A stretch of 38,331 nucleotides of DNA from a virus. Under the pieces are notes generated by a model. The model did no database searches, was not told the origin of the DNA, and was given only the letters and a program-made list of their open reading frames with translations. Position 1 is the stretch's first letter. The number at the start of each line of letters is the position of its first letter. A program made the translations under genes and the position numbers. The stretch spans positions 1 to 38,331 of IMG/VR virus record IMGVR_UViG_3300002514_000084; one strand, written 5' to 3'. Positions 3,240 to 33,000 of the stretch are shown in pieces.

Positions 3240-3248
3240 GTTAGACCT

Positions 3249-3265
3249 CTACTATTATAAATAGT
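3249..3265 (-). promoter_or_regulatory. AT-rich palindrome with ACTATTTATA, possible late promoter or leader element
   Basis: The 52-base gap between the 372-aa and 466-aa genes holds the perfect inverted repeat ACTATTATAAATAGT (3251-3265, plus strand). Read on the coding strand it contains ACTATTTATA, ending 16 bases before the ATG of the 466-aa gene. The same ten bases lie at the same distance before the 328-aa gene. On the plus strand the sequence reads TATAAATA, the T4 late promoter consensus, but in the direction away from the gene. It may be a diverged late promoter or a short mRNA hairpin just before the ribosome site. No experiment supports either. Confidence 0.35.
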
Positions 3266-3291
3266 TTGATCCAATTTTTAAGAATTCTATG

Positions 3292-4410
3292 TTAGTAATC
3301 TAAGCGAACCCGTAATGTAAATTCGGTCGATGGATCTTTCTTAAGCGGTTCTGATAGTTTAGCAACTGCCAATAATTCGCTGTCTGCCGAGTACAAACCA
3401 ACCGTAGTAGCATAACTGACGGGAGAGTCTGTGGAATTATTCTTTACTACAAGCTTACTGGCGCTTAAGTAAGTTGGGTTGGAAGAATAATTGAAATCAT
3501 TATGATTTGCTCTGCAGAAATAAATCGTAGAATTCAATTCCGTAGTATTGTTAAACTGGATATTGTTAATGCGATGTCTAAAGTCGTCGCAGGCGCCTGA
3601 AATTGCCGAACCCGTTAGGACCCCCTCGATACTGAGAAGGTTGGTCGACGGCGGTAATGCCGCGGGACTGGCTGTACTCATGGTGCAGGGAGTAGACAGG
3701 AGATTTCCGAAAACCGATGCGGTTACAACTGCAATTCCAGCCTGGTAATACAGCAAACCAGCAGCTACATAGCCATTGGGTCCAAAATTAGGATTCTCTG
3801 CGGGGATTCCCGTTTCCAAGGCTGAGCCAGTAGCATACAAGATGCCATACTCGCCAGCTGGCGAATTTACTTTATACCCTGTGGATCCACTCTTATCGGT
3901 CAGGTTAATCACTTTTGTGTTGAATGCACTAGCACCGGTTGGATCGTAATCTTCACCCACATTAAGGGTAATAGTGAAGCTGCCCTTCTTGATCTCGTCT
4001 TTTGCCAGGAGGCGCGTAAAGTTAATGAAGCATGCCTCATCAATTTTAGTGCCACCGGTAAGATCACCGTCTTCATCAAATCGTCGCACAGCGTTCGACT
4101 GATCAAACCCAGCAAGTATTTGAGCCATCTCATTGTAAATGTTGATCTTCTTGGCATTCTGAGTGTTAGAAGATGCAGATAATCCTGAGGAGTTGGCATA
4201 TCCAACGGTAAAATCGATAATGTGGTTTGCTGATGAACTCAAGTACGGATAGTCGTATGTAGACTGAAACATTCCGTGGGAAAAGTTTTTGATATTTGCG
4301 TCCGCATACGTTCCGGATAAAATTGATCCGGTGATTGGGATCGCCTCGTGAAGCATATTCCTGGTGGAAACAACGTCCTTCGGGTTAATCGTCTTAAATG
4401 AAGTTGCCAT
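3292..4410 (-). CDS. Virion structural protein, paralogue of the 466-aa gene
   Basis: A 372-aa protein starting MATSFKTINPKDVVSTRNML. It is Ser/Thr/Asn rich, with many short alternating polar-hydrophobic runs that suggest beta structure. The last two thirds share the architecture of the 466-aa neighbour: an IKKGSFTITLNV segment, an AGLLYYQAGIAVVTASV strand pair and a C-terminal VGLYSADSELLAVAKLSEPL block ending in an acidic RVRLDY tail. The N-terminal third (CDEDGDLTGGTKIDEACF-like region excluded) does not match the paralogue. The start is ATG 4410-4408 with AAGGA about nine bases upstream, and the gap to the upstream gene is 12 bases. No enzyme motif is visible. A role as a fibre or baseplate-decorating protein is inferred from context and from the paralogy. 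Confidence 0.8.
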   Translation of the reverse strand: MATSFKTINPKDVVSTRNMLHEAIPITGSILSGTYADANIKNFSHGMFQSTYDYPYLSSSANHIIDFTVGYANSSGLSASSNTQNAKKINIYNEMAQILAGFDQSNAVRRFDEDGDLTGGTKIDEACFINFTRLLAKDEIKKGSFTITLNVGEDYDPTGASAFNTKVINLTDKSGSTGYKVNSPAGEYGILYATGSALETGIPAENPNFGPNGYVAAGLLYYQAGIAVVTASVFGNLLSTPCTMSTASPAALPPSTNLLSIEGVLTGSAISGACDDFRHRINNIQFNNTTELNSTIYFCRANHNDFNYSSNPTYLSASKLVVKNNSTDSPVSYATTVGLYSADSELLAVAKLSEPLKKDPSTEFTLRVRLDY

Positions 4411-13465: not shown

Positions 13466-16400
13466 TTATCTCTTTTTGCGTGATGATCCTTTGCGTTTTG
13501 AAGTTGCTGTCTTGGTGCTTACAGAGGATTTGGTAGCCCTCTTGCTGGCAGCGGCGGAGGAGGGCTTCGTTGTACCCTCAAACGGTACATCGATAACCGC
13601 AGCCCTTGGAGCTATGCTCAAACTCATATCCTTTGTGGCGGGAATGAATTCTCTTAATTTCTCCTTAACTGGTGTCTCCTCAACTTCTTCATCAAATAAA
13701 TCTTCGGTTGCGTATACAACATCTGCTCCGATTTTAATTAGCTCGACGAATGAGAAATAATCGTATGGCCAATTGTAAGAATAGGGAGAGTTGATCGAAG
13801 GCTGGACTATCGGCGTTCCTCCTCCCAGGTTTTTATGTGTAAGAATATTATAATCCTTCTCGGCTCTTCTCTTAACCTTGAAAACCATCCACTGTAAATC
13901 TTCGTCATTATCAAGAAGACGATCCACCAGATTACGTATCTTGATTGTCGATGTCTTTTTCTCAAATTTAGTACTTGACGACGGTGGTAGGTTTTGCCAA
14001 ATATTAACGAGATCGTCCTGGGATAAAACCAGATCGAATTCAAAGGCATAAAACGCTATTGGGTTCACATCTTGATTTGTCAGAAAATCAAATGTTGGTG
14101 GGAAAATGTATTTATTCAACAGCGCCAACTGCGTCAGATACTCTTGAGAGTCTTTTTCTACGTTGAAATACTTTCGTTCGCCGCGGCTTGTTAAAAACGG
14201 TATGCACACGATGGCTTCTTCAACCTTCTTGCTCTCAGCAAAGTCACCGATGCGCTTCTGGTTTGTATCAAATCCAACAATTTTTGATAATGATTCTACG
14301 GCAATATTTCCATAGGTTGAAGAACTCATTTTTGTCGGTAGCTCGGCGACTGAAAGATATAAGCCTTCCGATCCTGATACTTTATTGCCGTATTGATGCC
14401 ACATGCCCCTGATCACCATGCCGTCGGTGCCTTTTTGACCGTACGATCCGGTGGCTATATATGGCGCTGCAGCGGGGAGATCGTAAGGCGCGTCAACATT
14501 ATAAAAATTCAGCACCGGAGTTTCAAACTTGGGGCGGATCATCCAGCGCGCCTTTTGGGTCGTGGTTCCTTCCGGGACGACGAGATGCTTCTCGAATAAG
14601 TCGACGCTTGAATCGATTTGAGCTTGGATTACGGAGCGGTCTGGAAGGTCTAGGGTTTCCACAATACGTGGGTCATTGCCGTTGTAGAGAGATTTTTTAT
14701 TATATTCTATTACAGCACTAGCCAGCAGCTCATCTATAGACGCTTTTCCTGAATATTTCGACTTAACAATGATATTAGCCATAGCTTCTCCGTAATATGA
14801 AGGAGGTAGAACATGCTCGTAGGATGCCCACATATTTGCTTCTTGTGTATATGGGGAGACTAATTGGTATCCAGTTCCCTGTTTATTGGTACCTGACAAT
14901 ATTAGTGGCGCGCCGAAAGCTGAGGCGCGGCTGTACATACCGAAGGTGGTTGGGATACCTAATCCAGTATAATAAGAACTAACCGGAACGGTCGACTGTG
15001 CTAAACGTACTTGCAATCCATAATACTTATCCTTCTCGACCGCCAAGAAGTTGTCTTCCTCCTTAGAGAGGAATGTTGTTTTCTCTGTAGATCCCAAGAA
15101 AAAATTATAAGTCTCACACAAGAAGTTATCCATACCAAGCTTATACATATTAGATTTGCTCTTACCGCTATAGCGCAACCAACATTTTCTTCCTTCATAT
15201 GAATTGTCGGTCGCGCCGGCATAACCATCCATAGCAGTATCCAAGCTAGCGCTTCCTATCCCGGTATCAAAGAACCTACCGCCCGGAATCGCAGAGAAGC
15301 CAAGATGTTTATCGGGGTCTCGGAGCGCTTCGAAAGGTATCTTATGCATGTAATATCCATTATGATGGGTATCCGCCGACGCTGAGCCGGCAATATTTAA
15401 ACAAGGATTCCACTCATTGTTATATGGTGCACCGACAGGTCCATCGCCGGTCGCGCCCTTGAACACTACAAACGCCGGGTCGCCGGGGTCAACGTATTGG
15501 GTGTTGAGTGGTCCCAATGTAGCCTCTGTTAACCCAAAAATCCCCCCGGCGCCGCCGTTATTCCAGTTGCCAATATATTTCGTAGTCGTGGTGGTATCTA
15601 AATCATAAGTTGGATATCCGTTTACAACCGCAAGATTGCTCTTTACTCCAGTATAGGGGTCTGTATTCACCACCACAAAGTTACTGCAAGCAATTCCGGA
15701 TTTTATCGTATTGAAAAGAATTCCGGGACTTATTAGCGGCTCGTAAATGATTCTCCTCATTACCGACTCTTTTTGATTATACGATTCGAAAACTGCAATC
15801 TCTCCCAAAGATTGAGAAAGGAGCGCGCCGAGTTCTTGTGTTCTTTCGGCTGGATAAAAACCCTTGTACGGTAAAAACTGCAATAGTGCGTCACAAGCCA
15901 ACTCTATCGAGTGGCGTGCGAGCCTCGTGCCGGACCCATTTGCTTTGTCCGCAAGGTCATCGTCGACAACTTTAAAGTATTTCATAAAATCGGCGGTGGA
16001 GTAAACATTATAAAACTCACTCTGTGAACTATCTGGAATTGATGCTCCTGTTAAATTAAATATATTATCCAATTTAGCCAAGAAATCGGAGCCCCTATTA
16101 AGTTCATATTCGGCAATGTGCTCGCTAATCCTAAACTCTGGTATTATCGACATGTCTTTGCCTATAACTCGAATATTCTGTGCGTAGTCTAAATATGGCT
16201 GATATGGGGAAATCCCTGCTTGCTCAGCCGCAACATAAGTCGGTGCAGTTAAAATATAAGGTGACCAGCCCAGACTGCCGTACCCGATCGTGGAATCGCC
16301 ATATTGAAGAGGCATCACATAAGTGGCAGATGCCGTCACCTGCTTAGCACCGGGGACACTGAACCTGCTATAAGGGTTCATTAGTTCACCCGCTCCGCTG

Positions 16401-19400
16401 CCAGTGCCGGGAAGTCCACTGTTATAGATAAATGAATCCAAGGGCCATATACTGGCACTCGGATCTTGATCTCCCTGTGAATTTATGCTGCCGAAGACAA
16501 GTGGAAGTATTCCATCCGGAACAGAGCGCAATGTACGAGCGTCATTCCAAATATTTGAAATATCATAATTTTCTCTGGTACGTGTTCTTGTTCGGAATGT
16601 ATTTTCAGCTGCAGGGTAAATCTTTTGACCGTATTTTACGACGGTGCTCAAATTAGACTGAAGAGTGAAGTCAGTAAGTGTATTATATACATTTCCATCT
16701 TCTGGATTGACTTTAAGGTTTAGGCGGCTATTGAGACCTGTGTTAGTAAAATAATCTAAATTATTCTGGAATGATGCTTTAACGAGCACGTTATTGCTGG
16801 CGTCCGGGAAGTCTGTGTTGTCTTCGAAAGCAAACACGACTGGTTGCGCGCTGTCAGCAATTGGCGCTTCAATATATTCTGTCACTTCAGTTGGATAGAG
16901 AGCTTGCTCTAGCCCATAAGTGCCTTTGAGCATCTGCGGAGGCTTGACTTGACCTATCTTATTCTCCGATCTTAGTTTGCGTGCGACCGGTCCTTCACCA
17001 ACTCGAATTTGCTTCCAAGTTGGGTATCCGTAAGGTCCATTCCGATTGAGCATCAAAGTGTTGAAAGTGTCGACGATTTCTTTATAATTATTAGGATCAT
17101 AGGTAGCCGCGTTAGCCAAGCGGTTATAAGAGGTTGTGGAACCGCCCAAAGGAAAGCCCAAATTATATAATTCATGGAGGGGGTAGCCCAAAGTACGATC
17201 GCCACCAGTGGGGACGCTGTATTTTGTAACTACACAATCAGTTTTTGAGTTCGCTGCATATCCTGTAAAGTCATCGAGATTGATCATCGTCGGATACGAA
17301 CCGTACCAGCTGTAGTACGCTCTAACGCCCAGATTATCCAGCGATCCAGAGACGGTCATTTGGTTGTAAATGGTGCTGGGAATGTCCGACTCGCCGTCGC
17401 CCATTCGGTACCATCCGACAAGGTTTTCGCGGGCACTCACTCTTCTAGTCGGCTCGATTCTCGAAGGTGCGTACCGCTTCACGTTTAAAGGCGAGTAGCC
17501 GTATACTGCATCAACCTCCCCTGGACTCATTGCTACATTATACCACTGAATATCAGATATGTATCCGGTGAGACCGTACTTGGTTCCTTTTGAGATGTTG
17601 ACGACGTCGCCCGGAGTCCAATTGCCGGTGCCGGAAGGCGGATGGGCGTACGTCGTCATCTCCAATGGGGCGCCATTAATGTAAACCTGTGAAGAGGCAG
17701 TGCCAGGAACAGACCAATCATTGACCATGGTTACATGAGCCCAGGAATACAACGGCATTAAGTCCCAGATCCCGGACGACGTCGCGTACCAGCCGGTGGA
17801 GCCGATTCTAGTGAAGATCATATCACTGCTGGCATATAACGAATGATCGCCGTAGAGAAGGTACCAGCCCCAGGTGATGCTCGCAGGAAGCACCCACCAC
17901 ATGATTGTCTCTGATTGATTAGTATTCAACTCGGCTGAACCGGTAAAAGCATAGTACAGCGGGGCGCTGTCGCTCTTCGTGAACAGCACGCATTTATTAT
18001 TCGTAACCTTAAGGGGCTCTGGCAGGTCTGCCAGTCCCGCCGAGACTGGGTCGGTGACTAGTGATCGCAATCCAACAAAATCGCCAGGAATTCTATCGGT
18101 AGTCGGCAGGTTATCGGCGCCAACGAACAACATCGAGTTTGATCCAGTTATCAACATATCCAAACTAGAAGCACTCACGCAAGTGGGGGTTTGAAGTCCG
18201 TAAATGGTCTTGTCTTCTGCTAGAGATGCCGTCACCCACGCATACTGTTGAGTCGAGCGAGGGATCTGATGCTGCACATATAGGTTATCATAAACGGTGC
18301 CCGTTACATACCCCGCAGAAGCGCTCTCAATGCGCTTCTTTGCGTTTCTATTGGTCTTGTGGTATGACGGGGTGGTTACGTAGGTTAACTCCGGCACAGA
18401 GCCGTACGCGGCGTCTGAGCCAAAGGGACCTGCATGCAGTGTTGCACGTTGGTTGAGCCCCCGCGGTTTGTCAATTTGATCCTGTACGCGGATGGTGTTA
18501 GATAAAGTTGGGTCAACTGAAGCAGATCCCGAGAGTCCGTAATCCAATACGCTCAGATTTCGATAGGGGAGCGCGTTATAGACTGATAACTCTTCATGTG
18601 CTGGGTCCATGTAGCCACGAGACTGGACGGTATACCCGCCTGGAGAACTAAATCGGTTTACTATAATGGTTTGATTTGAGTTTGTGCCTGTGCGGTTGGG
18701 CAGTGTGTAGTCCAGATTTCCGCTGATATTAGCTGTGGAGGTGGCATCGAGTGGGAACTTGCCGCGGGTGGCAAGTGTCTCGGGGGTTAAAGCAAAGTCA
18801 AAGGACTGATCGTTGAAGAAAGGATCGTTGGCTGTACGCCCAGCAGACTGAACGACCTGGTAATTCTTCTCATAGTTACCGATGGCCACAGTTCCAGTAA
18901 CCGTCTGAATGTTTCGTATATTGACCGGGCGCTTGATGCCGACATTGCGAAGTCGATGGGCGACGGGAATATCCTTGTCATAACCAAGTGTTTCTGCTGC
19001 GGCATAGTTAGGTGGAACGATTGCCATGGCGCCGCCGGCGGACGAGGAGAATCCATCAAACTCGATTTTCCATGCCTCGGGGCGGTTAGTAGCATCGTCG
19101 TCGCCTGTATTTAACGCGATGTGCCGATGTTCACGACCGCCTACATGTTGATCAGCAAACGGGCTCTGCAGCGACATGTCACTATCGTATACCAAATCCG
19201 CGTGCATATTTGTAATAGAAATGCTGGGCGCGTAATTATCTATAACTTGCTGGTTGTATCCGGTGGCTATAGAAGATGAGTAAACACTAAAGGGCGCCAA
19301 CAGATTACCATCGTTTCTGTTTTTATTATCATTATTTCTGTGAATGTCCGGATCTACCTCAAAACCAAGTCTTTGGTGGTAGGCAGGATGATAATCATCG

Positions 19401-22400
19401 GCTGTGTCCAACAGCTGCTCCACACCGGAGCCTGACGCCAGCATCATATTAACTGGTTTATTGGTGCCTGCCGCTAGTGCGCTAAATGGCTGCGTTGCAT
19501 TATATACAAAATCAATCTTTTTATTTATATTGAACCCTATACCGCCTAAAGTTGAGTTGCCATCCATGGTAAATTTATAAGGTGCTTGTTGTGCTCTGGT
19601 GTCAGATAGTTTTTTTGTATTAAGCACAGTCTGCTTGTCGCTGTTGACCGGAGCAGCGCTACTAGAAAGGTCTGCTTCCCATCTTTCCGCGCGGTTTTGC
19701 CACCAAAGACTGTTTTCCCGCTGTGAGAGACCAATCGGTGCATGTGTGCGACTCCAGCGTGTTATATTCGATGGCTGGGAAGTTCCAACCTGTCTCTTCG
19801 TTGTGGCGTTTGCGGAGTAAAACCCGGTTCCTGTAGGATCATCCTCTGGTGAGTTCCCGTCAGTGCTGGTGTCCGTGTTACCTTGGGCTGTACCTTCGGG
19901 GTCGGAGTCCTGCTTCTTAACATTCTGAAACTTGTGCTGGTACTTGCTTCGTTCCAGCATATGGCTCTCGATTATTGTACGTACATTTTCAGCAAAATCC
20001 GCCGATGCTGGTATCAGCTGTTGCAACATTATTGTTAATGACGAGTCAAACCACTTATAAAACTCATAGAACTTTTCGAAATCAATTTCACTATTGCTCA
20101 CCTTATCAAAAAAGCGCGCCCGCAGAAGCTTAAGTCCCTTGTATTCGGGTCTATACCGGTTAACGGGAGCTCCGATAAGAGTATTAATATCTTTCAATGT
20201 AGCAAAGTAGTTTATCATCTCGGATGAGACTGCCTGTGCCATACTCTTTTCAAAAGCGAAGAAGTAGTCTACTGGTCTAGAATCTCTGTTGTATACATTC
20301 TGTTCTTCCAAATTTAAAACTGTGACCATATCACTAGATTGGACATTTTCCGGTAGCTGGAGTTTAGAAGATACCTGAAAGTCTTTATCAACTGCCGAGG
20401 TTGAGGACGCGGCGAACTCATAACCGGCGCCGGAATACTGTTTACTTAAAAATGGACCGAGCCAGCCGAATCTAGATGCTGCAGTTGCCGCAGAACCAGA
20501 TGACATATCGATAACTGTGAACTCACCAGAAGCGTTAGAACCTGTATTCTGCGAGAACTCCCAATTAAGCGCCAAGGTGTCTGTTTTCAATACTTCTGCT
20601 GAACCAGTAGCCCGGGGATTAAACGGGTAAGCATAGAAATGAGGCTTCAAAGATCCATAGTTTGTAGTATCGTGGGCATGCCCTCTTAAGGTATCGTCTT
20701 CTAAATAATCAAACCAATACCTAGCAGAGTTAATCTTTACATCAGTCTGTTGTAATAGACTACCAGTGAAGTTAGTACGGTGGGCGCCGATATAAACACG
20801 TTTGCTCCCTGTCACAAAGCCTGCCGGCGTGGGAGCGCCAGAGCGAGCATCGCCACTAAGCGTGAATTCATTCTGTACAACACCAGCATCAACTTGAACT
20901 CCATGAAGTTCTACCGTATAGACGCCCTGGTCGGCGCCGGCGACCTGATAAGAAAGCGGATACTTATCCGGCTTAATCCTGACTGCCAGATTCCAATGGG
21001 TATCTTGATAGGCGCCTTCATATAGGTCAGATTCGAGGGAAGGCACGAAGCCGCCGGCGGTTCCAGTAAGAACAAAACGTACGTTATCTGATTCTAATTC
21101 ATCCCTGACAGCATAAACCTGAAAGTTTGGTGCGTCGGTTGTGTCCCAAGTGGTGTCCGATTCAGTTTCGTTAACCCCATGGACACCAAACAGAGAGGCA
21201 CTAATTGTATTCGTGTCTGCATAATAAGAAGCGTTTACTGCAATTTTGGTGGGGAAGTCAACATCTATTTCGAAGGTCTGGGCATATCCCCCTGTTAATC
21301 TAGTATTGGCAGCAAAGTATCCCGTGGTGTTGGTTGTATCGGTAGGATCTTGGAGTTGATATACTGTTGCGTCAACATTGTCACCAGTATTAAAATTAAC
21401 AAATCTATCTGCGACTGCTACATTACGACGATTTTCTCTTATTTCATATTCTATATTTGAAGCGTACATGTTGAGCTTAACCAACTCATCATCAATTCCA
21501 AAACATCTAATTAAGTTTCTAAAAGACTTTTCTGTTCCTTTAGTTTTGTAGATATACACCAAGTTGTTATAAATGTTCTGGTATATTGTGTTCTTTATTT
21601 CTTCTAATGGTTTCTCGTACACTCGATCTTCGCTGCGATCAGCTAATTTCTCTAACACATCCGCATCTATAAACAGATTAGGAGATACTAGACCAGTTGA
21701 GGATAATAATTTTTCAGCAAAAGGAAGCGGCTTGTTGCTACCGGTATTGTAGGTTATATTTTTAAGTTGTGAGAGTGACTCTATCTGAAGATGTAGGGTG
21801 TCAAAATAACTTGACATTATTTGTGTCAGGTAACGCAGTTGTTCGTGGCCCTCGGCGTCCTCTTCTGTGATCCAAGAGGGTAAAAGATAATACATCGAGG
21901 CATTGTTGTTCGCATCGTAGTTGGAACCTGTGAGCTGCAGATTGTTCGATAAAGCCTCTACGTCCGGATGGAATGAATAAATAATAGGATCTTTGAACTC
22001 TTTAATAGCGGCGCCGGAGTCTACGATGGCTGATCCTACATTACGAGAGTTGCTTGTATATCCCGTCCAAGCACCGTTTGAAACGCGTCCGGAGAAATCC
22101 AATACCACTGAGTCAGTCGTTGTAACTCCAGTGATGCCCTCATTAAACTTATAGTAGACGCCCAAATCTGTATTGACCGTCTCGGTCGTAGTAATAAATG
22201 GGGTGGGGTCATCGTTGGTGCCTCCCCCGATCTGAGTAAACCAAAATCGTCCGATATCACGACCTGTGCGCTGTGATTTCCAGTACCGGAATTCATCCAG
22301 AGAGCCAGACAGTTTACCCGCGGTGGCGGCGATGGCAGCCGAGCTAGTTGGAGAAGAAATCAAAGCACCCACATATGCGCGCAGGGTGCCGGTGACCTCA

Positions 22401-23299
22401 TTAATCCCAACTGTCCCCAATGTTACAGTGTTATTCAGGGTACCATCAACATAAAAATCAGAATTTATTCCGGATGACCCCGACTTAAGAGTAAGGGCGT
22501 AATGATGCCAGTTTCCATCTGTGACCGTTTCGCTGGTAATATTGCTATCAGCAATCGATTGCATTTCAAAACCTACGGTACCAGAGAATACAGTCGCACG
22601 GAAGCAATCGGCGCCGGAGGCACCAGTTAGTTCTAGCCTAAAGCGCCCATAAGATGTTGATCCTGAGGTTTCGCCATTCCAAAGATCGAATATAACTTCT
22701 TTTTCTGTTTTCGTAAGATCAAACGCATCTTTCTTCAGCCAAAATTCTACGGAGGCTCCGTTATCCTGCAGATCAAATTTTAAATTGCTTTCACGGTTCT
22801 TGTTCGTTTCGTAAACATTAGATCCCGTAAATTGAATTGCGTAAGAGGCGCCTGTATCTGAATTGGGGTGCGGTCCGCCCTTCAGATATATGTACTCAGG
22901 AGTGGCAGGGAGACCATAGCCATCTGTAAGTGTGGAAGAACCATATCCATCAGCTGAGAAATTAATATAGCCGTTTGTGCGCGGGTAATCTTTCTCGAAG
23001 ATATGAAGGTCTAAGTAGGTAGAGTTATTCTCCCACTCTATCTTCTCTTTCAGGGAGCCATCATACGGATAATCCTCATAAATCCTCTTTAAGGCTTGAC
23101 TATAATATTCGGCCGCGGAACCATAGCGAGCAAAATTCCCAGGTAGAGAATAATCTACTCGCGGGATGAAGCGTTCTTCGCGGATGATGTCTTGCTCATG
23201 ATACCCAACCGACTCTATCTCAGAAGCTATTTCTTCTGCTGATTTGTTAGATAATGCTTGGAGCGAAGCCGCTTTATTAAAATAGTCTTTTAAGCTCAT
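13466..23299 (-). CDS. Giant baseplate/tail protein with LamG-like modules and gpI/gp7-like module
   Basis: At 3277 aa this gene takes a quarter of the window. A LamG/concanavalin-like module lies near residues 150-345 (ASVEFWLKK, GNWHHYALTL, DFYVDGTLN, GSLDEFRYW). A segment near 470-605 resembles the P2 gpI/T4 gp7 wedge family: LLPSWI, then YKTKGTEKSFRNLIRCFGID. A second LamG-like module spans about 660-880 (HWNLAVRIKP, RVYIGAHR, INSARYWFDY), and a third about 1780-1940 (SWAHVTMV, QVYINGAPL, GYISDIQWYN). The remaining parts show no known domain. The last 36 residues are very basic (TKTATSKRKGSSRKKR). The gene follows gp25 and gp6 homologues, the place of gpI/gp7 in P2 and T4. The ATG at 23299 has AGGA only two bases before it, so reinitiation after the upstream stop ten bases away is likely. 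Surface glycan binding is inferred. Confidence 0.85.
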   Translation of the reverse strand: MSLKDYFNKAASLQALSNKSAEEIASEIESVGYHEQDIIREERFIPRVDYSLPGNFARYGSAAEYYSQALKRIYEDYPYDGSLKEKIEWENNSTYLDLHIFEKDYPRTNGYINFSADGYGSSTLTDGYGLPATPEYIYLKGGPHPNSDTGASYAIQFTGSNVYETNKNRESNLKFDLQDNGASVEFWLKKDAFDLTKTEKEVIFDLWNGETSGSTSYGRFRLELTGASGADCFRATVFSGTVGFEMQSIADSNITSETVTDGNWHHYALTLKSGSSGINSDFYVDGTLNNTVTLGTVGINEVTGTLRAYVGALISSPTSSAAIAATAGKLSGSLDEFRYWKSQRTGRDIGRFWFTQIGGGTNDDPTPFITTTETVNTDLGVYYKFNEGITGVTTTDSVVLDFSGRVSNGAWTGYTSNSRNVGSAIVDSGAAIKEFKDPIIYSFHPDVEALSNNLQLTGSNYDANNNASMYYLLPSWITEEDAEGHEQLRYLTQIMSSYFDTLHLQIESLSQLKNITYNTGSNKPLPFAEKLLSSTGLVSPNLFIDADVLEKLADRSEDRVYEKPLEEIKNTIYQNIYNNLVYIYKTKGTEKSFRNLIRCFGIDDELVKLNMYASNIEYEIRENRRNVAVADRFVNFNTGDNVDATVYQLQDPTDTTNTTGYFAANTRLTGGYAQTFEIDVDFPTKIAVNASYYADTNTISASLFGVHGVNETESDTTWDTTDAPNFQVYAVRDELESDNVRFVLTGTAGGFVPSLESDLYEGAYQDTHWNLAVRIKPDKYPLSYQVAGADQGVYTVELHGVQVDAGVVQNEFTLSGDARSGAPTPAGFVTGSKRVYIGAHRTNFTGSLLQQTDVKINSARYWFDYLEDDTLRGHAHDTTNYGSLKPHFYAYPFNPRATGSAEVLKTDTLALNWEFSQNTGSNASGEFTVIDMSSGSAATAASRFGWLGPFLSKQYSGAGYEFAASSTSAVDKDFQVSSKLQLPENVQSSDMVTVLNLEEQNVYNRDSRPVDYFFAFEKSMAQAVSSEMINYFATLKDINTLIGAPVNRYRPEYKGLKLLRARFFDKVSNSEIDFEKFYEFYKWFDSSLTIMLQQLIPASADFAENVRTIIESHMLERSKYQHKFQNVKKQDSDPEGTAQGNTDTSTDGNSPEDDPTGTGFYSANATTKRQVGTSQPSNITRWSRTHAPIGLSQRENSLWWQNRAERWEADLSSSAAPVNSDKQTVLNTKKLSDTRAQQAPYKFTMDGNSTLGGIGFNINKKIDFVYNATQPFSALAAGTNKPVNMMLASGSGVEQLLDTADDYHPAYHQRLGFEVDPDIHRNNDNKNRNDGNLLAPFSVYSSSIATGYNQQVIDNYAPSISITNMHADLVYDSDMSLQSPFADQHVGGREHRHIALNTGDDDATNRPEAWKIEFDGFSSSAGGAMAIVPPNYAAAETLGYDKDIPVAHRLRNVGIKRPVNIRNIQTVTGTVAIGNYEKNYQVVQSAGRTANDPFFNDQSFDFALTPETLATRGKFPLDATSTANISGNLDYTLPNRTGTNSNQTIIVNRFSSPGGYTVQSRGYMDPAHEELSVYNALPYRNLSVLDYGLSGSASVDPTLSNTIRVQDQIDKPRGLNQRATLHAGPFGSDAAYGSVPELTYVTTPSYHKTNRNAKKRIESASAGYVTGTVYDNLYVQHQIPRSTQQYAWVTASLAEDKTIYGLQTPTCVSASSLDMLITGSNSMLFVGADNLPTTDRIPGDFVGLRSLVTDPVSAGLADLPEPLKVTNNKCVLFTKSDSAPLYYAFTGSAELNTNQSETIMWWVLPASITWGWYLLYGDHSLYASSDMIFTRIGSTGWYATSSGIWDLMPLYSWAHVTMVNDWSVPGTASSQVYINGAPLEMTTYAHPPSGTGNWTPGDVVNISKGTKYGLTGYISDIQWYNVAMSPGEVDAVYGYSPLNVKRYAPSRIEPTRRVSARENLVGWYRMGDGESDIPSTIYNQMTVSGSLDNLGVRAYYSWYGSYPTMINLDDFTGYAANSKTDCVVTKYSVPTGGDRTLGYPLHELYNLGFPLGGSTTSYNRLANAATYDPNNYKEIVDTFNTLMLNRNGPYGYPTWKQIRVGEGPVARKLRSENKIGQVKPPQMLKGTYGLEQALYPTEVTEYIEAPIADSAQPVVFAFEDNTDFPDASNNVLVKASFQNNLDYFTNTGLNSRLNLKVNPEDGNVYNTLTDFTLQSNLSTVVKYGQKIYPAAENTFRTRTRTRENYDISNIWNDARTLRSVPDGILPLVFGSINSQGDQDPSASIWPLDSFIYNSGLPGTGSGAGELMNPYSRFSVPGAKQVTASATYVMPLQYGDSTIGYGSLGWSPYILTAPTYVAAEQAGISPYQPYLDYAQNIRVIGKDMSIIPEFRISEHIAEYELNRGSDFLAKLDNIFNLTGASIPDSSQSEFYNVYSTADFMKYFKVVDDDLADKANGSGTRLARHSIELACDALLQFLPYKGFYPAERTQELGALLSQSLGEIAVFESYNQKESVMRRIIYEPLISPGILFNTIKSGIACSNFVVVNTDPYTGVKSNLAVVNGYPTYDLDTTTTTKYIGNWNNGGAGGIFGLTEATLGPLNTQYVDPGDPAFVVFKGATGDGPVGAPYNNEWNPCLNIAGSASADTHHNGYYMHKIPFEALRDPDKHLGFSAIPGGRFFDTGIGSASLDTAMDGYAGATDNSYEGRKCWLRYSGKSKSNMYKLGMDNFLCETYNFFLGSTEKTTFLSKEEDNFLAVEKDKYYGLQVRLAQSTVPVSSYYTGLGIPTTFGMYSRASAFGAPLILSGTNKQGTGYQLVSPYTQEANMWASYEHVLPPSYYGEAMANIIVKSKYSGKASIDELLASAVIEYNKKSLYNGNDPRIVETLDLPDRSVIQAQIDSSVDLFEKHLVVPEGTTTQKARWMIRPKFETPVLNFYNVDAPYDLPAAAPYIATGSYGQKGTDGMVIRGMWHQYGNKVSGSEGLYLSVAELPTKMSSSTYGNIAVESLSKIVGFDTNQKRIGDFAESKKVEEAIVCIPFLTSRGERKYFNVEKDSQEYLTQLALLNKYIFPPTFDFLTNQDVNPIAFYAFEFDLVLSQDDLVNIWQNLPPSSSTKFEKKTSTIKIRNLVDRLLDNDEDLQWMVFKVKRRAEKDYNILTHKNLGGGTPIVQPSINSPYSYNWPYDYFSFVELIKIGADVVYATEDLFDEEVEETPVKEKLREFIPATKDMSLSIAPRAAVIDVPFEGTTKPSSAAASKRATKSSVSTKTATSKRKGSSRKKR

Positions 23300-23309
23300 A
23301 TCCTAAATA

Positions 23310-24827
23310 TCATTCAACTCTAAATTTAAACGTTTGTGGTTGTTCTTGCCAGGTGCCTATGCTATCGTTATAATAGGATAATTTAATTTCATACATGTAA
23401 CCGCCTTGAAGCAGTGACATGTCAAAATCAAAATAATTTCCATCCTTATCGTAGGACAAATACGTACTATAATTCGACCCAGTTCCATACTGAACAGCTG
23501 TATAATTATCTGTCACGCGTGAGATGGAGTAAGATGCACTGGGGATTATATCCGTTGGGTTATTAGAGGTTGCCTTAACATAGATGGTTGGGTTCCAATT
23601 GCGATCACGAACGAAGAATCGAAATCTCGCTTTATCGGACGTAGTATATGACTTTTTAAGGTTCTTGCAACTTGTAATCCTCGTAAACGTGGGAGCAGCC
23701 TCATAAGTAGGCATCTTCTCAGGATAAGAAGATCCAGTAAAATATTGAGTAGTACCGCTATGCCAAACATCATAAAGAACTTGCAAAGGAGTTGCGGCTG
23801 CTGTTATGGCTAATGAAGCCGAATAAATACCAGTACTTACATAACCGCCGGTTAAGTTTAAATTACCATCATAGAGTGTTAATGCAGTTCCCGTAGGAGC
23901 AGTCGACCCAGAATACAGTGAAACCAATATCCCCCCAGTACCCACTGCAGGAATATTAACCAGACGTCCTCTAATATAATTATAGAGATAGAGGGTGTTT
24001 AAGTTATCGGCGGCAGGAGCTAATGAGCTAGAATAATAAAAGTTTTCGCGGTCATCGGATACCCTAGAATCCCAGCGCGCTTCGATGGTTGGGCGCTTAA
24101 AAAAGAATTCACTCGAACGAGAGAAGAATTTCTTTATGTAATAAGAGTCGCGGGCACCCTGGGGATTATTTATTAAAACAGAGGTGTCTTGACCGGTAGA
24201 GCTGGAGAAGTACCCCTCTTGGCTAGCAGTTAATCGAATTCCAAAACCGTAGTTTTTAATAACCCCGGGTGAGGCTGTGGTGTCAATATCAGTTATCCAC
24301 TGTTCAACAATCTGACTTACGTCCAATTCTATATCTTCATACCCCTGATCAAAGTAAACGTTGTAGTTCGAAGCGGTCAGGTAATCTCCTCCAATAGAAG
24401 TCCATGACGTATTCGAGTTTGGCTTCATCCAGTTAGAAGAACCCAGGTCCTTATACTCATCCATATCCAGCCCTGTGCCTTCCACCCAAGATTGGGAAAT
24501 AGGGGCAACAACTAGATTAAACGACTGAGGCAGTGTGAAGGGTGTCTCGGCATTGTGCATTTTAAGGTGAAACGACATGCTGCCGCTGCTCGGAAGCACA
24601 CCAGCAGTACGATCCGTGACGATTGATTCAATTGGGAATTTTATAAGGGCGCGGGATAACTCCTGGGTCTGCCCTATAACGGAGCCCGAAGACTGCCCAT
24701 AAATGGAAAATATTGCCATCGAGTCCGCGTACCCCATATTAGAGCCTGTGCCGCGGGTGGACAAGCCGGCTTCGAATGCATTAGTTATGGTTGTGTCCGC
24801 ACTAGCGGTATATCTTAAAATGGCCAC
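23310..24827 (-). CDS. Structural protein with DNRLRE-like N-terminal domain
   Basis: A 505-aa protein. Its first 200 residues follow the pattern of the DNRLRE family: YTASADTTITNAF, then a 'G..NMGYADSMAIF' stretch, ELSRALIKFPIES, a strand-rich middle, SWVEGTGLD, and a later IVEQWITD segment before FGIRLTASQEG. DNRLRE domains are beta-sandwiches found in extracellular proteins and some are thought to bind carbohydrate; the match here is by eye. The C-terminal 250 residues include PTFTRITSCKNLKKSYTTSD and RFFVRDRNWNPTIYV and look beta-rich. The start is GTG 24827, overlapping the gp6 stop as TAGTG, with AAGGA about eleven bases upstream. It is inserted between the gp6 gene and the gp7-like gene, which are adjacent in P2 and T4. 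It may be a wedge-bound fibre network or decoration protein. Confidence 0.75.
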   Translation of the reverse strand: MAILRYTASADTTITNAFEAGLSTRGTGSNMGYADSMAIFSIYGQSSGSVIGQTQELSRALIKFPIESIVTDRTAGVLPSSGSMSFHLKMHNAETPFTLPQSFNLVVAPISQSWVEGTGLDMDEYKDLGSSNWMKPNSNTSWTSIGGDYLTASNYNVYFDQGYEDIELDVSQIVEQWITDIDTTASPGVIKNYGFGIRLTASQEGYFSSSTGQDTSVLINNPQGARDSYYIKKFFSRSSEFFFKRPTIEARWDSRVSDDRENFYYSSSLAPAADNLNTLYLYNYIRGRLVNIPAVGTGGILVSLYSGSTAPTGTALTLYDGNLNLTGGYVSTGIYSASLAITAAATPLQVLYDVWHSGTTQYFTGSSYPEKMPTYEAAPTFTRITSCKNLKKSYTTSDKARFRFFVRDRNWNPTIYVKATSNNPTDIIPSASYSISRVTDNYTAVQYGTGSNYSTYLSYDKDGNYFDFDMSLLQGGYMYEIKLSYYNDSIGTWQEQPQTFKFRVE

Positions 24828-26623
24828 TATCTTATAGATCCTTTAATATCAACATTTGGAAACTTGAGTTCAAATATAATTCTTTCATTTGCAACGATCA
24901 TATTACCGTCTGCAGATAAGTTTCCGTAAACATCATAATTACTATTTGAGTATAACCCTCCGGTCTTTTCTACGATTTCGACGCTATAAACATCCAAAAT
25001 ACCCTTAACCTTTTGAAGCTCTCGATGAATATCCGTTATTTGAATAGATTCTCCTATATCAAACTGATTGGCGTTATAAAAGTTTACCAATTGTCTATTA
25101 GCTCGATTAATAACAGTATATCTGCTACTATTCGCGTCGAGACTTATAATATAGTTAATCCCAAAATTAACAATTTCGGTGTCTAAAATATCAACCGTAT
25201 CGTTAATCATTTTATATTGTGATATCCAAGTTTTAAGGTTATTTTTTAATACAGTATTGGAGGGTGTCAGCTTTCCGCTGCTATCCTTAGAAACAACATA
25301 CAGATTCAAATTCCTCTGCGAGTCTTTAAAATCTTTCACTATCTGTGCCCTATGGACAGCGCCAAATTTTCCAGGCATCCCATATATAATAGCTTGATAA
25401 TCCTGAACGGTTACGGCGCGGTTCTGGGCTGCAAAGTACGACATTGTGCGTTGCTTGATTTCTTCGGAAGATGGCATCGATATATTTCCGACAAAGGGAG
25501 CTTCGTTAGTAAGCTCCAGGGAACTCTGGACACTGTTGCGGGTTGCCAAACTTAAAGTTGCTTGTTGCGAAAACTTGAAAGATGGCGATTGAGGCACGGT
25601 AATAGTTCCGATGGCAGCATTGACATCACGACCAGTATTATATCGATAGTTTATTCGTAGTTTTGTATTTGCCGGAGCTACTCCAAACTTATCCGTACTG
25701 ATAAGTTTTACTGGGTCAAAGTCTAAATCACTAATATAATTTTTGCCATTTAAATCTAATATCAAGTCAGATGGGTCTAATACAGGATTACTCAGTAACT
25801 CTGAGTCTGATCCGTAACCGAATTGCAAGAAGGATTCATTTCCGCGTTGTTCGAGTACAAACCGGCGAGGGACAGGCACCGCTTTCAATAAGTTGGGAAC
25901 AGTGGAACTATTAGTTCCACCATTACGAATTGCTTTATAAATAATGTTTTGTGATAGATTCTCAACCTGATAATATTGATGACCTTCGGTATCTGTTACA
26001 CTTAGAACATCTGTGATATTAATTCTTGAAAGTGGTACTTTTAAAAATCTCTGGAATTCGCCGACAGTGACCTCCTCTGTGCTGGTGCGTCCGGACATGG
26101 CTCTGCCTAAAGCGCGAATAATGTACGATTGTGGGGCTCCAGTGGTGGAGTTTGCGGCTGCTACAACAACTTGATTATTGATCGAAGCAAAGTTGACATC
26201 TTCCAGAAGTGTGTAAAGTCCTCCGGCTGAAGATGCAAAATCTGAACCTGCGCGTAAAGTTGGTGCAAAATCAAGGTCAGGACCGGCGCCTGCAGACGCC
26301 ACTGGAACCTTAATATAAAAAGTTAACGTACCAAATGACGCTGGGCTTGCCGGGAGGCGGAAGCCAAACTGACGAGAGAGGCTCACTACATTGTCATACT
26401 GGATTGCTGTATCAAGGAAGCCCTCGTTTGCCTGATAATCAACATAAAATGAAAGAATGTCTCCGATATAGGAAACAGTATCCAGCATTAAAGAACCAAA
26501 CGATGCCTCGCTAAAGTCTTGATAGGTGTTGGGATAATATCTTTTGGCGTATGTTTCGAGATCCCGGCGGATGGAATCGAAGTCGCGGCTGGTATAGTTT
26601 ATGGCTTGTTGTTTCTTGGGCAT
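24827..26623 (-). CDS. Baseplate wedge protein, gp6/J-like
   Basis: A 598-aa protein that would form part of the inner ring of baseplate wedges around the hub. The N-terminus has the family pattern INYTSRDFDSIRRDLETYA, followed by a 'YYPNTYQDFSEASFGSLMLD' type stretch and FYVDYQANEGFLDTAI, as in T4 gp6. The middle includes QRTMSYFAAQNRAVTVQDYQ and IIYGMPGKFGAVHRAQ, typical of the baseplate J domain, and the C-terminal part carries the DIHRELQKVKGILDVYSVEI segment seen in this group. The length is close to T4 gp6 (660 aa). The start ATG 26623 has TGGAG about eight bases upstream, and the gp25-like gene ends 20 bases earlier. Together with gp25 this pair is the most reliable evidence for a contractile tail. 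Confidence 0.93.
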   Translation of the reverse strand: MPKKQQAINYTSRDFDSIRRDLETYAKRYYPNTYQDFSEASFGSLMLDTVSYIGDILSFYVDYQANEGFLDTAIQYDNVVSLSRQFGFRLPASPASFGTLTFYIKVPVASAGAGPDLDFAPTLRAGSDFASSAGGLYTLLEDVNFASINNQVVVAAANSTTGAPQSYIIRALGRAMSGRTSTEEVTVGEFQRFLKVPLSRINITDVLSVTDTEGHQYYQVENLSQNIIYKAIRNGGTNSSTVPNLLKAVPVPRRFVLEQRGNESFLQFGYGSDSELLSNPVLDPSDLILDLNGKNYISDLDFDPVKLISTDKFGVAPANTKLRINYRYNTGRDVNAAIGTITVPQSPSFKFSQQATLSLATRNSVQSSLELTNEAPFVGNISMPSSEEIKQRTMSYFAAQNRAVTVQDYQAIIYGMPGKFGAVHRAQIVKDFKDSQRNLNLYVVSKDSSGKLTPSNTVLKNNLKTWISQYKMINDTVDILDTEIVNFGINYIISLDANSSRYTVINRANRQLVNFYNANQFDIGESIQITDIHRELQKVKGILDVYSVEIVEKTGGLYSNSNYDVYGNLSADGNMIVANERIIFELKFPNVDIKGSIR

Positions 26624-26643: not shown

Positions 26644-27036
26644 TTAGTTCTCAAAATCAATTTGAAGCATAGTTGTCTTGCGCAGGGGCACAATTGTAAA
26701 ATGTATCCACACCGAGATGGTGGACGGAAAAAGGTCTGGGTTGTCTTCGGGTACTTTAAAGTCGATCTTATTAATCTCGATATAGTCCATATATCTTTTT
26801 GTTTGGGCTAAAATTTTATCATTTATCTCACCGTATACTGCTGGGGAATTCATCTCAAAGAAATATGTTTTTAGCCCTATCCCGAAATCTGGATTCATAA
26901 CACGTTCGCCAGGCGCGGTCAGCAGCAACATCTTAAAATTTTGTCTGGCTAACTCAACATAATCTGTTATGAGCCCATACGGACCGAATTCGTCGCTTTC
27001 CAAGAGTGGTAATCTAACTGCTATTCCTGAGGCCAT
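26644..27036 (-). CDS. Baseplate wedge protein, gp25/W-like
   Basis: A 130-aa protein of the GPW/gp25 family. The signature is clear: LARQNFKMLLLTAPGERVMN, then PDFGIGLKTYFFE, and a C-terminal strand with the IHFTIVPLRKTTMLQIDFE pattern. In contractile tails this small protein sits in the wedge core and contacts both gp6 and the sheath, starting sheath assembly. The length agrees with T4 gp25 (132 aa). The start ATG 27036 is the first Met after the stop of the 1993-aa gene and has AAAGGG about eleven bases before it. The next gene is the gp6 homologue, which is the usual order. Despite the family's older 'lysozyme' label in databases, enzyme activity is not expected. Confidence 0.95.
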   Translation of the reverse strand: MASGIAVRLPLLESDEFGPYGLITDYVELARQNFKMLLLTAPGERVMNPDFGIGLKTYFFEMNSPAVYGEINDKILAQTKRYMDYIEINKIDFKVPEDNPDLFPSTISVWIHFTIVPLRKTTMLQIDFEN

Positions 27037-27060: not shown

Positions 27061-30000
27061 CTAGCATTCGCTAGGCGGAGTTTCCTCGCTGACATCTATG
27101 ATATCGTCACCCAGTTCATCAGGTAGTTCTCTCTTAAGTAGCATCAACAGCAAATATAATAACCCTAGAGGTGTTATAGGAAGCATAAATATTCCCGGGA
27201 CAGTTCCTTTAAAGTCAACCCCCTGGTAACTGATACGTGGTGTTAACTGTACATCGTCCATACCGGGAGGTCTGGGCGCGTTCGCAACAGCTTCGTCTAA
27301 ACCCTTTTGGAGTCCACAAAGCAACAGTTTCATAGCGCCTTCGCCGGTGATACCCGGCGCAATCCCCGGAACGGTCGAGCCTTCGGGGGCATTCGGTGCC
27401 GGATTCGGTAGTGGACCTTTAAGAGGTGTTAACACCGGAGACTTTTCGATTGCCTCTCCCATTGCATAGAACGCAGTACCTGTTATAGTTTTAATCAGTT
27501 TAGAGATTGCAATGTGTGGGTCTACCAATTCAGCCAGAGAACGAAGGATCTCGATAGGTGTTTCAATAAGCATTCTTAAAATAAAGTCTCTTGCTGAAAG
27601 GCTTAGATTATCAAACTGTGGAGTGTCAGGACCTGGAGGAGGCAATGCGCGTTGTCGTGGGGAAGGAGTATGATTATTTTGATTGGCTATAGTATCTTTA
27701 AATATGTCAATGCAACGGAGTTTCGGCGCTAGAAAGCGACCATCAGCTTGTGGAAACTGCGAATCCGTTAAATAGAAATTGTATAGTATAGGAATAAAAG
27801 TTATTAATTCGGAATTGAAAGCTTTCTGGAAAAAGTCCTGATATGTCGGGTCGGCTGATATAGCTGCAAACTCAGTATCTGTTATAGAAGAAGAGGTGTA
27901 AGTTTCCAATTGTTGTGTGAAGAGAGTATCCCCTGTAGAAATTGTTCCTATAGTTGTTTCTGCGTCCAGTTCCTTTAATACATACCTGTGGAGGGTGCCC
28001 TCCTGGGTGCCGAGATGAAAGCGATTCTTCTCTTTTAGCGCTGCGGCGGCGCGATGCGCATCGTAAAACAAGCCGGAATCGTCGTCGCCGGTATCGGTTG
28101 TACCGTCGGGGCTGAGGGAATGTGCCGCTGCTACGGGGGATTCGTACGGTAAGTAATACACAATACGATATTTAATACGAAGATTGTCAAAACGAAGAGG
28201 TCCTGATGAGTCAAGCTCTCGCCCGGGGATTAATCCCCTATTTATCCAGGATCCTGGGACTAAAACATCCTTAAAAATACTAGTCTCCATTCCATATGCT
28301 GAGCCGCTAGTGTCTGTTAAGACAGGTGGTGTGTTTGCTAGTATGAGCGCGGCGACTTCCGGCTTTGAAAGTCCAGTTGCCATGGTGGACATGGGTCGAA
28401 CATCATCCCATACCGCAACTCTTTCTAGCGCGAGCTTTCCATATCCCAAGTTCATATTATTGTTTATATATTCAGATAGTTCTCTCCTAAGCTCGTCTCG
28501 ATGATGCCTGACACTCCCCGGCGCGCCGCCGAGGAGACGATAGCTAGGAGTTGCGGTTTCCGAATTAACATCTAGATATATTCTACCTCGCAATTTGGCG
28601 CCCCCTAACCAAGAAGGCTGCACCGTTAATATATCTTCAATGAAAATTCTATCTGTAGATTTCGATGTTGAGCCCGGGGTTGTTTTTGCCAACGCATTCG
28701 CAACAGCTGTGCGTGACTGAGCGACACGAAGCATAACCATATAGTCGATAATATCCGGCATATTTTCAGATGTGAAAGAAACATCTGAGGCAAATACTAT
28801 ATCGCCGAGAGCATCTTTAAGCCCTCCCGTTCCAGTTTTAGCGGTGCGCGTGATCTTCTTGTTCATATATTTTAGAATTGTTTCTGAAACGAGAGGCTCT
28901 CTATCTAAAAGAGCAGTCATCTGATTTCGAATGGTTGAAGCCAGCAAACCTTGAACAGCTTCCGATTCCATAAAACTTTTTATATTAAACGCCGATAGTA
29001 CAAAGATATTCTTAATTACGAATTGAGCAATGTGAATCTGAATTAACAACATAAAGACACCATAACGTATAACATCTCTTATTTTTGCGCCCATGGGATT
29101 GATTTCGCCAGGGGTTGACTCATCAAAACACAGTGCATCAAGCATTTCGTCTTGTAATATTGCCAGAATGCCGTCGGCATCTAGAAAATCGGCGACGTCT
29201 TCCGGTAAACAATTTGCATTATCGTGGAAAAAGTTAACTTTATCCAGTTTATCAGTTGTAAAGATTCCTTCTCTCTGGATATAATCAAATGTGTTTTCTA
29301 CCAAACCCGTGAATGCGCCGGGAAACAAAACACTTTCAGCTTCTCTCGTATATTGGTTTCTTCTAGTATCGTTTAGAGATATATCTTCGAATTCAACTTG
29401 ACTTATTAGGGGATCTGAGAATATGCTGACATATGGGTTAACATCCGACGTATTGGTATACCCGGAGCTAGGTAATGATGAGCCCCCGATATCAAAATCA
29501 GCATCTACATAATTTGAGGAAATAAGGGTCGAGTTTAAGGTAATATCAACAAAGTTGGATGTTTGTCCAGTACTATAGGAAGGATAACTAATTGAAATCG
29601 TGTCAGCTTCCGCGGTGGTCATAGGACGCAAGTAAGCATTACTTCCTGATTGTTGAAAATACCGCTGCTGGGAGATCGTTAGAGCGCGCAGGTCGTCTCT
29701 TCCGGTCTGATCGATGGTACCAGCGCGGTCTGCGTCCCATAAAACAGCGTACGCGCTTTGATTGTCTGCGTCCCACTGATAAGGGCTTGGAGAACCAACT
29801 GGCTCAGTATATTCACTATCCCCTGGTTGGTAAAAATCCCAAATCTTTCCTCGTGGCGCGCCAGAGGACTGATTCGTACTTCCCAGCATGAATGTCAATT
29901 GCATGTTCTCGTAGCCATAGAGGGGCGTGTTGGTTCCGTTAGAAGAGAATCGAGGACCCGCTGAGACTTTGTTAGTGTGTGCTGACGTGAAGACCGCGGT

Positions 30001-33000
30001 ATTGGGGAGGTAATTATTCCATTTATGCGCGAATTTACGGGGGAACTGATAGGTGACAGCGGGTGATGAGCCGGATTCGTCTTCCGAAGCATTCGAGAGA
30101 ATTTCTGACATGTCAGTAATACCGTTGATGAACTCGGGATCGTTCACCATCTCTACCAGGATTTTCATCACTGTATCAAATACCTCCACAGCCGTATCAG
30201 CCTCGGTCCCCAAGATATCTGCCAAGTCTAAATTACAACTTTCAAGATCAGCCAGATGATCCGAGATGGTCTCAAATACGTCGGCAACCTTCTTTAATAC
30301 ATCCTTCGCATCTGTATCCGTTTCAGTGGTCAATTGTGCGCCTCCGGCGGCCTCGACGTTTTGATTGACTGAGATAGTTCCCGGGGTTGAGGCAAACGTT
30401 GGCTCTTTAAGAATCGAGGTGAGTGAACTGATAGAGTTCACAAACTCCATCTCCACCACTTCAACAATATTATTTAACAAACTTGGAATGGTATCACTGA
30501 CTAGTGGGTTTCTTATATAATCCGGGCGCTTAGGGCAATCTAAGTTGATCTCGGCTAGTGGATTGGTTAAATTGATACCATTCTCAATCATATCTTGCAA
30601 GATCTGGTTGATTGCATCGGGGGCGGCTTCTTCTATTAAACATATATTATCATAATTTAGGTTGTAAAGTTCGTTGGCTATCTGGTTGCAAAATTCTGTT
30701 ATGTCGGTAAATCGAGATATATCAGCAAAAAATCCCAAGATGGCGCCATGGCTATTCAGGGTATTTCGTACCTGGATGTCTTCGTATGCTAAATTGAACC
30801 TTAAGATTTTTTCTAATGTCTCATATGTCACCTCGGAGCGGCTAGTAAACAAAAAGCAGATCTCCATTGAACTCAAAATAGACGATACAGCACTAAGATA
30901 TTGCTGCATCTGTTCGTCGGACAACCCTCTTTTTGCTGCAATTTGGGTCAGCGGTCCCGGACCGACGATGCCCGGGGAATGATCCACCAAGTCAGCCATG
31001 TCCGTGGCGCCGTAGTCTTCAGCGCGAGGATTTGATAGTTTGCACAGCTCTGATATGAGCTTAGCGAGACCCTTAACAATCTCCAGGACAGCCTTCTGGA
31101 GTGAGTCGATCATTGCTTTAAGCATCTTTTTCCATAATTCGCCATCGATAGTATAAATGCCTTTCAGCTGTTTCTGTATAGATCCCAAAGAGGGAACAGT
31201 AAGTCCTACTCCATTATCTGAGGGTTCCATATACAGTTGCATCCCAACAGTATTGATTGCGTTTGCAGCTGCCCCAACGACGCGAGAGATGGCTGTGGGG
31301 AGTCCGAAAGTACGGCAGAGCAGTGCTTCCTTAACAAGTTGATCAATCCCGATGGATCTCAGGAGCATGTCTAGCTTGGAGCCCTTTTTCACTCCCGGCA
31401 TTGAACCATTTAGGAACGAGTTGATTGTCTTCACCACATCTGCACTGGTTTTGAGGGCTTTTTTCTTATTAGCCATGGCAACTTTCTTATAGACCTCTGG
31501 GTTCTCCCGTACCTTTTCACGCAGCTCTTTCAACTGCGCCGGTGACAATGAGGCGACGAAGCCTTTTTCTATTTTCTTTGTTTCGGATAAATCAATAAGA
31601 CCCATTTCTGCAGCTGCTTTAATATATTCATTATTGATATTGAGATCTGCAGCCGATGGAAGATCTGGTATTACCCAGTTATCCATGTTGGTAACTCCGA
31701 AGTCGGCGGGATTTGAATCCCGATAAAAATCAGTAAAAGAAAAGGTTGTCTGGTTAGCCCAATCAGGTGTGGCGGTGTTGCCCAGGGCGAAGTCTGATAA
31801 AGATCCAAAAAAGTCTGCCTGCTTGGAGGCTGTTTCTGCTTCTTCTTCAGCTCTCTCATCAGCACGAAGTATGCTCTCTCTTGATTTAAGGATAGCTAAA
31901 GTGTTTCCATCTCTAAACGCATTATTATACTTAGAGTTTGAGAGATACCCAATCTTTAAAACGAACTCTTCAACACCCGTCGAGGGGTGTCCAACTGAGT
32001 ATTCTATGATGCCAACGGCAGGTGCTTCTCGTGGCGATCCAGGCGCGGTATTTGCAGGATCATAGCCTGGTGGAGTGCGAGTGCCAAAGGTGATACTAAA
32101 ATTACCAAAAATTCTAGAGCCACTATATCCCTCCGGTGCGAAGGCGCTAAGGTCTATATCATCCATGGGAGGATTGCCAGCAGCAAACTTCGCTCCAGTG
32201 ATTTCCTCCAAGATGCTGGCCAATATAACACCATTTAAAATCTGAGGGATTGTAGAGCGCACTGATTCGAAATCAACATCGACTGGCATAATGCCAGCTG
32301 CCAGCTTCCCGGATTGCTGTGCAAACCGGTTTAGAATTTCATCAAATCTGATACTCTCTTCTGAGTATGTTTCTAGTGATAACTGGAGAGTTTTGCCTAA
32401 AGTATCGATACCCTCGTCATGGTTAAACTGTACCAGGGATTCTCCAAACGGCGGCAAAAGACCCAAGATCTCCAAAATTTCCCTTATTTCGGATGGGTCT
32501 ATGACGCTTATCTCTAAACCAGTGGGAGAATCCAGGGGCAAAAGGTGCACCTTGTCGTATATTTTATCAGTGGGATCAACTCCTACCTTTAATATCTGTA
32601 TTTGTTCATTAGTAAGCGATAATTCTAAAACGCTTATGTTGCCGATAATAATGCTTTTATTCTCCGACTGTAGTTGGGGGTCAGTGGGGTCATAATAGCC
32701 GATAGAAAGAGCATTCTGGACCATAGTTCGAACTGTTTGATAAAAATTGAATTGGTCTGTTGTCTCAACCAAAGTGGCGTCTCTCAAATAAATATAATAT
32801 TCTGGATAGTAGTGAAGTATAAATCGGTCTGTTAGAATCTGGCTTATTGCTGCAGCATTAGTAGACAGCGCTGCAGCGTCCTGAATCTTATCATACGTGA
32901 TTTTTATCTTTACCGAGTCGTCGGACAGATTATAAAACGGAATATCCATTTTTGCCGATCGGTAGCCCGTTTTCTCGTCAATAGGTCCAACTAGGTTATA

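Follow-up and report, generated by a model that had tools for sequence, protein, structure and literature searches.

In contractile phages, fibres and spikes are where receptor recognition is usually looked for, and the locus described here raises the question of whether a wedge protein of the baseplate can also take part in it. The window under analysis is the entire virus record (IMGVR_UViG_3300002514_000084; 38,331 bases). Positions 13466-23299 of its minus strand form a single open reading frame (ORF) of 3277 aa, in which residue r begins at window base 23299-3(r-1), reading downwards. The initial annotation had described this gene as a fusion of LamG lectin modules with a gpI/gp7-like baseplate segment. 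Comparison with related sequences suggests that it most likely encodes a wedge scaffold of the gp7 class that bears interchangeable lectin modules, for which sugar binding is predicted.

The ORF itself was borne out. A first scan returned 68 loci with relatives of the 3277-aa protein, and later, larger scans returned several hundred relatives. Many independent contigs carry the ORF in this gene neighbourhood, and given this recurrence both are beyond chance. Full-length relatives range from 2782 to 4274 aa (36 non-redundant IMG/VR sequences, the window protein counted in), and residues 1-1120 are kept in all of them. The C-terminal region (residues 2081-3200; 13700-17059, minus strand) is conserved and belongs to no known family. 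When the whole protein was searched against Pfam and PHROGs, LamG was the sole family found and there was no PHROG match. Sequence-profile searches of the PDB with residues 1-1140, with the segment around the KGT motif described below, and with the C-terminus gave no relevant match; matches to CooA and to WD-repeat proteins in these profile searches were judged to be due to chance. The LamG-bearing relatives stem from metagenomic contigs, of which some are truncated. Matches in bacterial genome contigs were rejected as bacterial loci at least for L170 and L172, which have phage-like neighbours and runs of N. In L170 (CP070664.1), a WOR-3 "chromosome" assembled from a metagenome, the wedge gene stops at a run of N amid phage-like ORFs, a picture that suggests misassembly or contamination.

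The proposed position of the gene downstream of W/gp25 and J/gp6 homologues was likewise confirmed. The gp25/W-like baseplate wedge protein is encoded at 26644-27036 (minus strand; Pfam GPW_gp25, 2.8e-9) and the gp6/J-like baseplate wedge protein at 24827-26623 (minus strand; PHROG 6, baseplate wedge, 7.8e-21). A 505-aa gene that the initial annotation had left out (23310-24827, minus strand) lies between the gp6 homologue and the 3277-aa gene, directly upstream of the latter. It had no family match in Pfam or PHROGs, and 184 of 188 relatives of this type have it at the corresponding position. Adjacency to gp6/J and gp25/W, which marks the gpI/gp7 class, is found here with this one gene intervening. 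Among the relatives, a gp6 homologue stands upstream in 304 of the 306 loci with room for one. A tail sheath is encoded in 5 of 14 larger contigs of the group, which argues that these phages have contractile tails. Adjoining the gp25 gene is a 1993-aa protein (27061-33042, minus strand), for which a convincing Pfam or PHROG match was absent, and a 402-aa protein with a DUF2272 domain (2.3e-9) is encoded near the baseplate genes at 34076-35284 (minus strand).

Three LamG-like modules had been proposed in the protein; the first and the third, near residue 1850, were recovered by Pfam, whereas the middle one was found by fold only and not by sequence. Laminin_G_3 matched the whole 3277-aa protein with 62.3 bits (7.6e-17). 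LamG1, which is conserved in the family, has its Pfam stretch at residues 176-349 (7.6e-17) within a fold spanning residues 108-434 (21998-22978, minus strand), and its structural match was to pentraxin and LamG folds (Z 18.3). LamG3 at residues 1786-1929 scored 33.2 bits against a Laminin_G_3 cut-off of 27.6, so that both modules lie above the curated Pfam threshold. AlphaFold2 was run on residues 1-1140 with an alignment of 44 sequences. Of the expected jelly-roll folds, LamG1 (pLDDT ~88) and residues 624-980 (20360-21430, minus strand; pLDDT ~85 at 624-862) were predicted to form beta-sandwiches, although the latter carried no LamG sequence signal: Pfam gave no match, and hhalign to the LamG modules gave P 0.23. 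In the structure search this second sandwich aligned solely as the partner domain of two-LG-domain chains, and we provisionally regard it as LamG/ConA-like at the level of the predicted fold. No LamG signal was found at residues 1001-1200 or 2001-3277. The first two sandwiches are kept in nearly all full-length relatives. Since their conservation is about that of the remaining protein (the chassis), they may be scaffold and not receptor-binding. The third belongs to an exchangeable set of modules.

These exchangeable modules occupy five slots between residues 1187 and 2075 that carry inserts in relatives; where each slot starts and ends is set by the alignment and could differ by tens of residues. 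Four slots are empty in the window protein, all coordinates being on the minus strand: slot 1 after residue 1187 (19736-19741), which holds a LamG in 7 relatives; slot 2 at residues 1397-1423 (19031-19111); slot 3 around residue 1517 (18710-18772), the slot filled most often in relatives; and slot 4 around residue 1660 (18275-18337). Slot 5, at residues 1761-2075 (17075-18019), is filled by LamG3 and is occupied in only a minority of full-length relatives. The window protein thus has one filled slot, and the shortest relatives have none. Large inserts were mostly LamG, as judged by Pfam and a profile built from the inserts, and a few were other small domains. Modules in the same slot can be far more alike than the proteins that carry them. 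Those of L039 and L052 are 85% identical against 52% for the chassis, and those of L013 and L042 are 84% identical against 54%. At the DNA level, L039 and L052 share 682 bases at 90% within the module, compared with 64-77% in the aligned chassis segments before it, and L013 and L042 share 1442 bases at 84%, spanning the module and some flank. Mapped onto a tree built from 45 modules, the slot labels require 15 changes against a minimum of 4, yet they are more clustered than shuffled labels. These results indicate that modules mostly keep their slot but have sometimes moved to another slot or another phage.

Exchange of this kind also bears on a different role for the modules. On the same gp7-class scaffold they could be structural, docking tail fibres or neighbouring wedges, with their turnover following partner proteins and not glycans. 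The conservation of LamG1 and the second sandwich along with the chassis would fit such a role, as would two known baseplates: in AlgoCIS, tail fibres are contacted by the part of Alg12 that resembles gp7 (PMC8894135), and XM1 gp17 anchors tail spikes (PMC10457771). However, the slot modules are wholly absent in some relatives whose protein is otherwise complete, and they are swapped as blocks between distant chassis. We consider a structural role rather unlikely for the slot modules and favour lectin modules with predicted sugar binding.

The assignment of the scaffold to the gp7 class depends on residues 445-612 (21464-21967, minus strand), which carry the motif YKTKGTEKSFRNLI (KGT motif) at residues 584-597. 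As proposed, this segment lies between two beta-sandwiches. Its gpI/gp7-like character reached no curated cut-off, and the structural Z for the core of a compact relative was at most 4.3. TIGR02242 recurred below its cut-off: 17 of 30 and 10 of 72 members gave a match to it, no other NCBIfam model was matched by more than 3, and the matches in the 17 of 30 fall at the KGT position. On the window segment it scored 12.4 bits, below the curated NCBIfam cut-off of 51.85 bits. Comparison with P2 gpI, T4 gp7 and Tail_P2_I profiles had been suggested as a check, and its outcome was mixed. The gpI and gp7 profiles align on the KGT motif, with P values of 0.0064 for gpI, 0.015 for T4 gp7 and 0.011 for cyanophage gp7, and column shuffles scored as high in 1/200, 1/200 and 0/200 cases, respectively. 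This profile test has little power, since the accepted pair of gpI and T4 gp7 reached a P of only 0.37 in it. By contrast, Tail_P2_I (PF09684) matched neither the window protein nor the segment in Pfam, and among 72 relatives it matched 2, with a best E of 0.14. A profile built from compact relatives only was not better than shuffles against T4 gp7 and cyanophage gp7, and hhalign against single T4 gp7 or P2 gpI sequences was not significant.

In the structural comparison, the KGT stretch of the window protein has an AlphaFold2 pLDDT of 33-50 over much of its length, and Foldseek of the predicted core of a compact relative gave no significant PDB match and BFVD matches mainly to uncharacterised relatives. 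VIA matches covering the KGT-to-PA part of the compact core were to baseplate chains of A-1(L), P1, phi812 and a Streptomyces injection system. The top one for a compact relative was a weak match to the A-1(L) wedge protein gp32 (Z 4.3, 107 residues aligned); VIA matches with Z below 8 were not taken as proof, and these baseplate matches lend the gp7 class support that falls short of proof. Sequence and fold evidence, each below cut-off, converge, and gene order adds weight, so that residues 445-612 are most likely a divergent gpI/gp7-like segment.

Compact relatives indicate how this segment relates to the rest of the core. The sole cultured-phage match to the first 1433 residues, over residues 461-613, is gp162 of Flavobacterium phage vB_FspM_immuto (QQO91841.1), which shares the KGT segment (profile alignment E 2e-35), the PA helix, and a gene placed after those for gp25 and gp6. 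Unlike the window protein, it has 1265 aa and no LamG, and its core parts are close together. A conserved "PA" helix lies downstream in 295 of 336 ORFs carrying the KGT segment, a count that takes in related sequences and some contigs fetched more than once. In the window protein it corresponds to the helices at residues 1009-1120 with the "IPAS" helix (19940-20275, minus strand). The KGT-to-PA spacing is bimodal: it is below 200 aa in 87 compact ORFs (most 87-150) and at least 350 aa in 205 ORFs (most 400-490), with the second sandwich occupying the long linker. Toward the N-terminus, AlphaFold2 predicted helices at residues 31-110 (22970-23209, minus strand), and residues 46-65 within them resemble an element near the KGT segment of compact relatives (hhalign P 9.5e-4; reversed control 0.3). 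LamG1 sits between residues 46-65 and the KGT segment. On the grounds of this likeness and of the spacing of the core parts relative to compact relatives, the gpI/gp7-like core of the window protein appears to be split by LamG1 and the second sandwich.

Some relatives of immuto gp162 carry other domains. In L192:3837-7652 and L194:2883-6074 a Fib_succ_major domain was found (Pfam 2.8e-42 and 3.1e-40), which in L192 lies between the KGT segment and the PA helix, the place of the second sandwich in the window protein. At L190:3837-7982 a Hint-type (intein-like) domain (residues 1219-1367) ends an immuto-like wedge protein C-terminally.

Another reading is that the 3277-aa protein is a different peripheral tail protein, such as a tail fibre or a gp10/gp8-type protein, with a KGT-like motif by chance. 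It would account for the low structural Z and for the lack of any curated family score above cut-off, and it draws on the 505-aa gene, which occupies the place of T4 gp7 directly after gp6. Nevertheless, the KGT motif was found independently against three gp7/gpI families, the PA helix follows it in the same order as in gpI, baseplate chains head the structural list, and the gene order is conserved. We therefore regard a peripheral tail protein as improbable and retain the gp7-class assignment.

Taken as a whole, the explanation that we hold to be reasonably probable is that of a gp7/gpI-class wedge protein of a contractile-tailed marine phage, with a split core and slot modules that bind host glycans and help trigger contraction. 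The conserved core would pack against the gp6-like protein, the two making up the wedge. LamG1 and the ConA-like sandwich, both conserved, interrupt this core, and behind it lie the five slots, where phages gain, lose and swap LamG modules. If each wedge held one copy, as the analogy with (gp6)2-gp7 suggests, the baseplate would be ringed by six sets of modules. Displayed at the baseplate rim, the slot modules may hold host-surface glycans during adsorption while the wedge rearranges, and glycan binding relayed through the wedge could help to trigger sheath contraction. Part of host recognition may then sit in the baseplate itself. It is a more tentative proposal that, in an abundant uncultured group of marine myophages, the wedge protein itself is the adaptable host-recognition protein, a constant scaffold whose five slots receive lectin modules swapped through recombination, and host range lies partly in the wedge and not in the fibres. 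If true, a wedge scaffold with fixed slots and swapped LamG modules would amount to natural, modular recognition at the contraction trigger point, and it might serve to mark host range in metagenomes. That the modules instead hold virions close to particles by binding marine polysaccharides, free or gel-forming, with no part in receptor recognition, would agree with their diversity and their absence in the shortest relatives, yet it is very improbable, as the baseplate would suit such binding less than the head.

Known systems share some features with this proposed wedge protein. P2 gpI and the Tail_P2_I and TIGR02242 families have the KGT motif followed by a helix with a K/P-type motif in the same order, and W and J as neighbours; they differ in their size of ~180-250 aa and the lack of lectin modules, and the window protein stays below their curated cut-offs. 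In T4 gp7 and in gp7 of Synechococcus phage SynMITS9220M01, the motifs YSTKGIEASYKFLF and YSTRGTESSFKILF, respectively, align to KTKGTEKSFRNLI, and the gene adjoins gp6, whereas the domain order is different. Giant gp7 proteins do exist, since the cyanophage protein has 4067 aa, a size comparable to that of the window protein; Pfam found no LamG in it. This protein (L370:3389-15592), annotated as "baseplate wedge initiator", has its KGT motif near the N-terminus and carries a YHYH domain.

A precedent for cell-binding carbohydrate modules on a wedge protein is Vp4 Gp119, baseplate wedge 3 of a Bacillus cereus myophage, which has carbohydrate-binding-module (CBM) folds that are missing from a close homologue and which binds cells; its authors were aware of no earlier report of CBM in myophages (PMC11406892). 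Gp119 differs in having 831 aa and CBM instead of LamG, in being a third wedge protein and not of the gp7 class, and in that no slot system was described. In AlgoCIS, Alg12 is fused to a gp6-like part and touches tail fibres; its gp7-like part is called a hotspot of re-engineering, and LamG modules are not reported in the available part of that paper (PMC8894135). Our literature search, which covered few subscription journals, found no description of LamG modules in a gp7-class wedge protein; new in this work are the scaffold of the gp7 class, its split core and its system of slots.

Two further regions of the window were noted. The neighbouring proteins encoded at 1839-3239 and 3292-4410 (minus strand) had no family match in PHROGs; their C-terminal ends are alike by eye, and they are possible paralogues. 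At 37036-38010 (minus strand) this phage contig encodes a GDP-mannose 4,6-dehydratase (Pfam 3.8e-130), a sugar-nucleotide enzyme.
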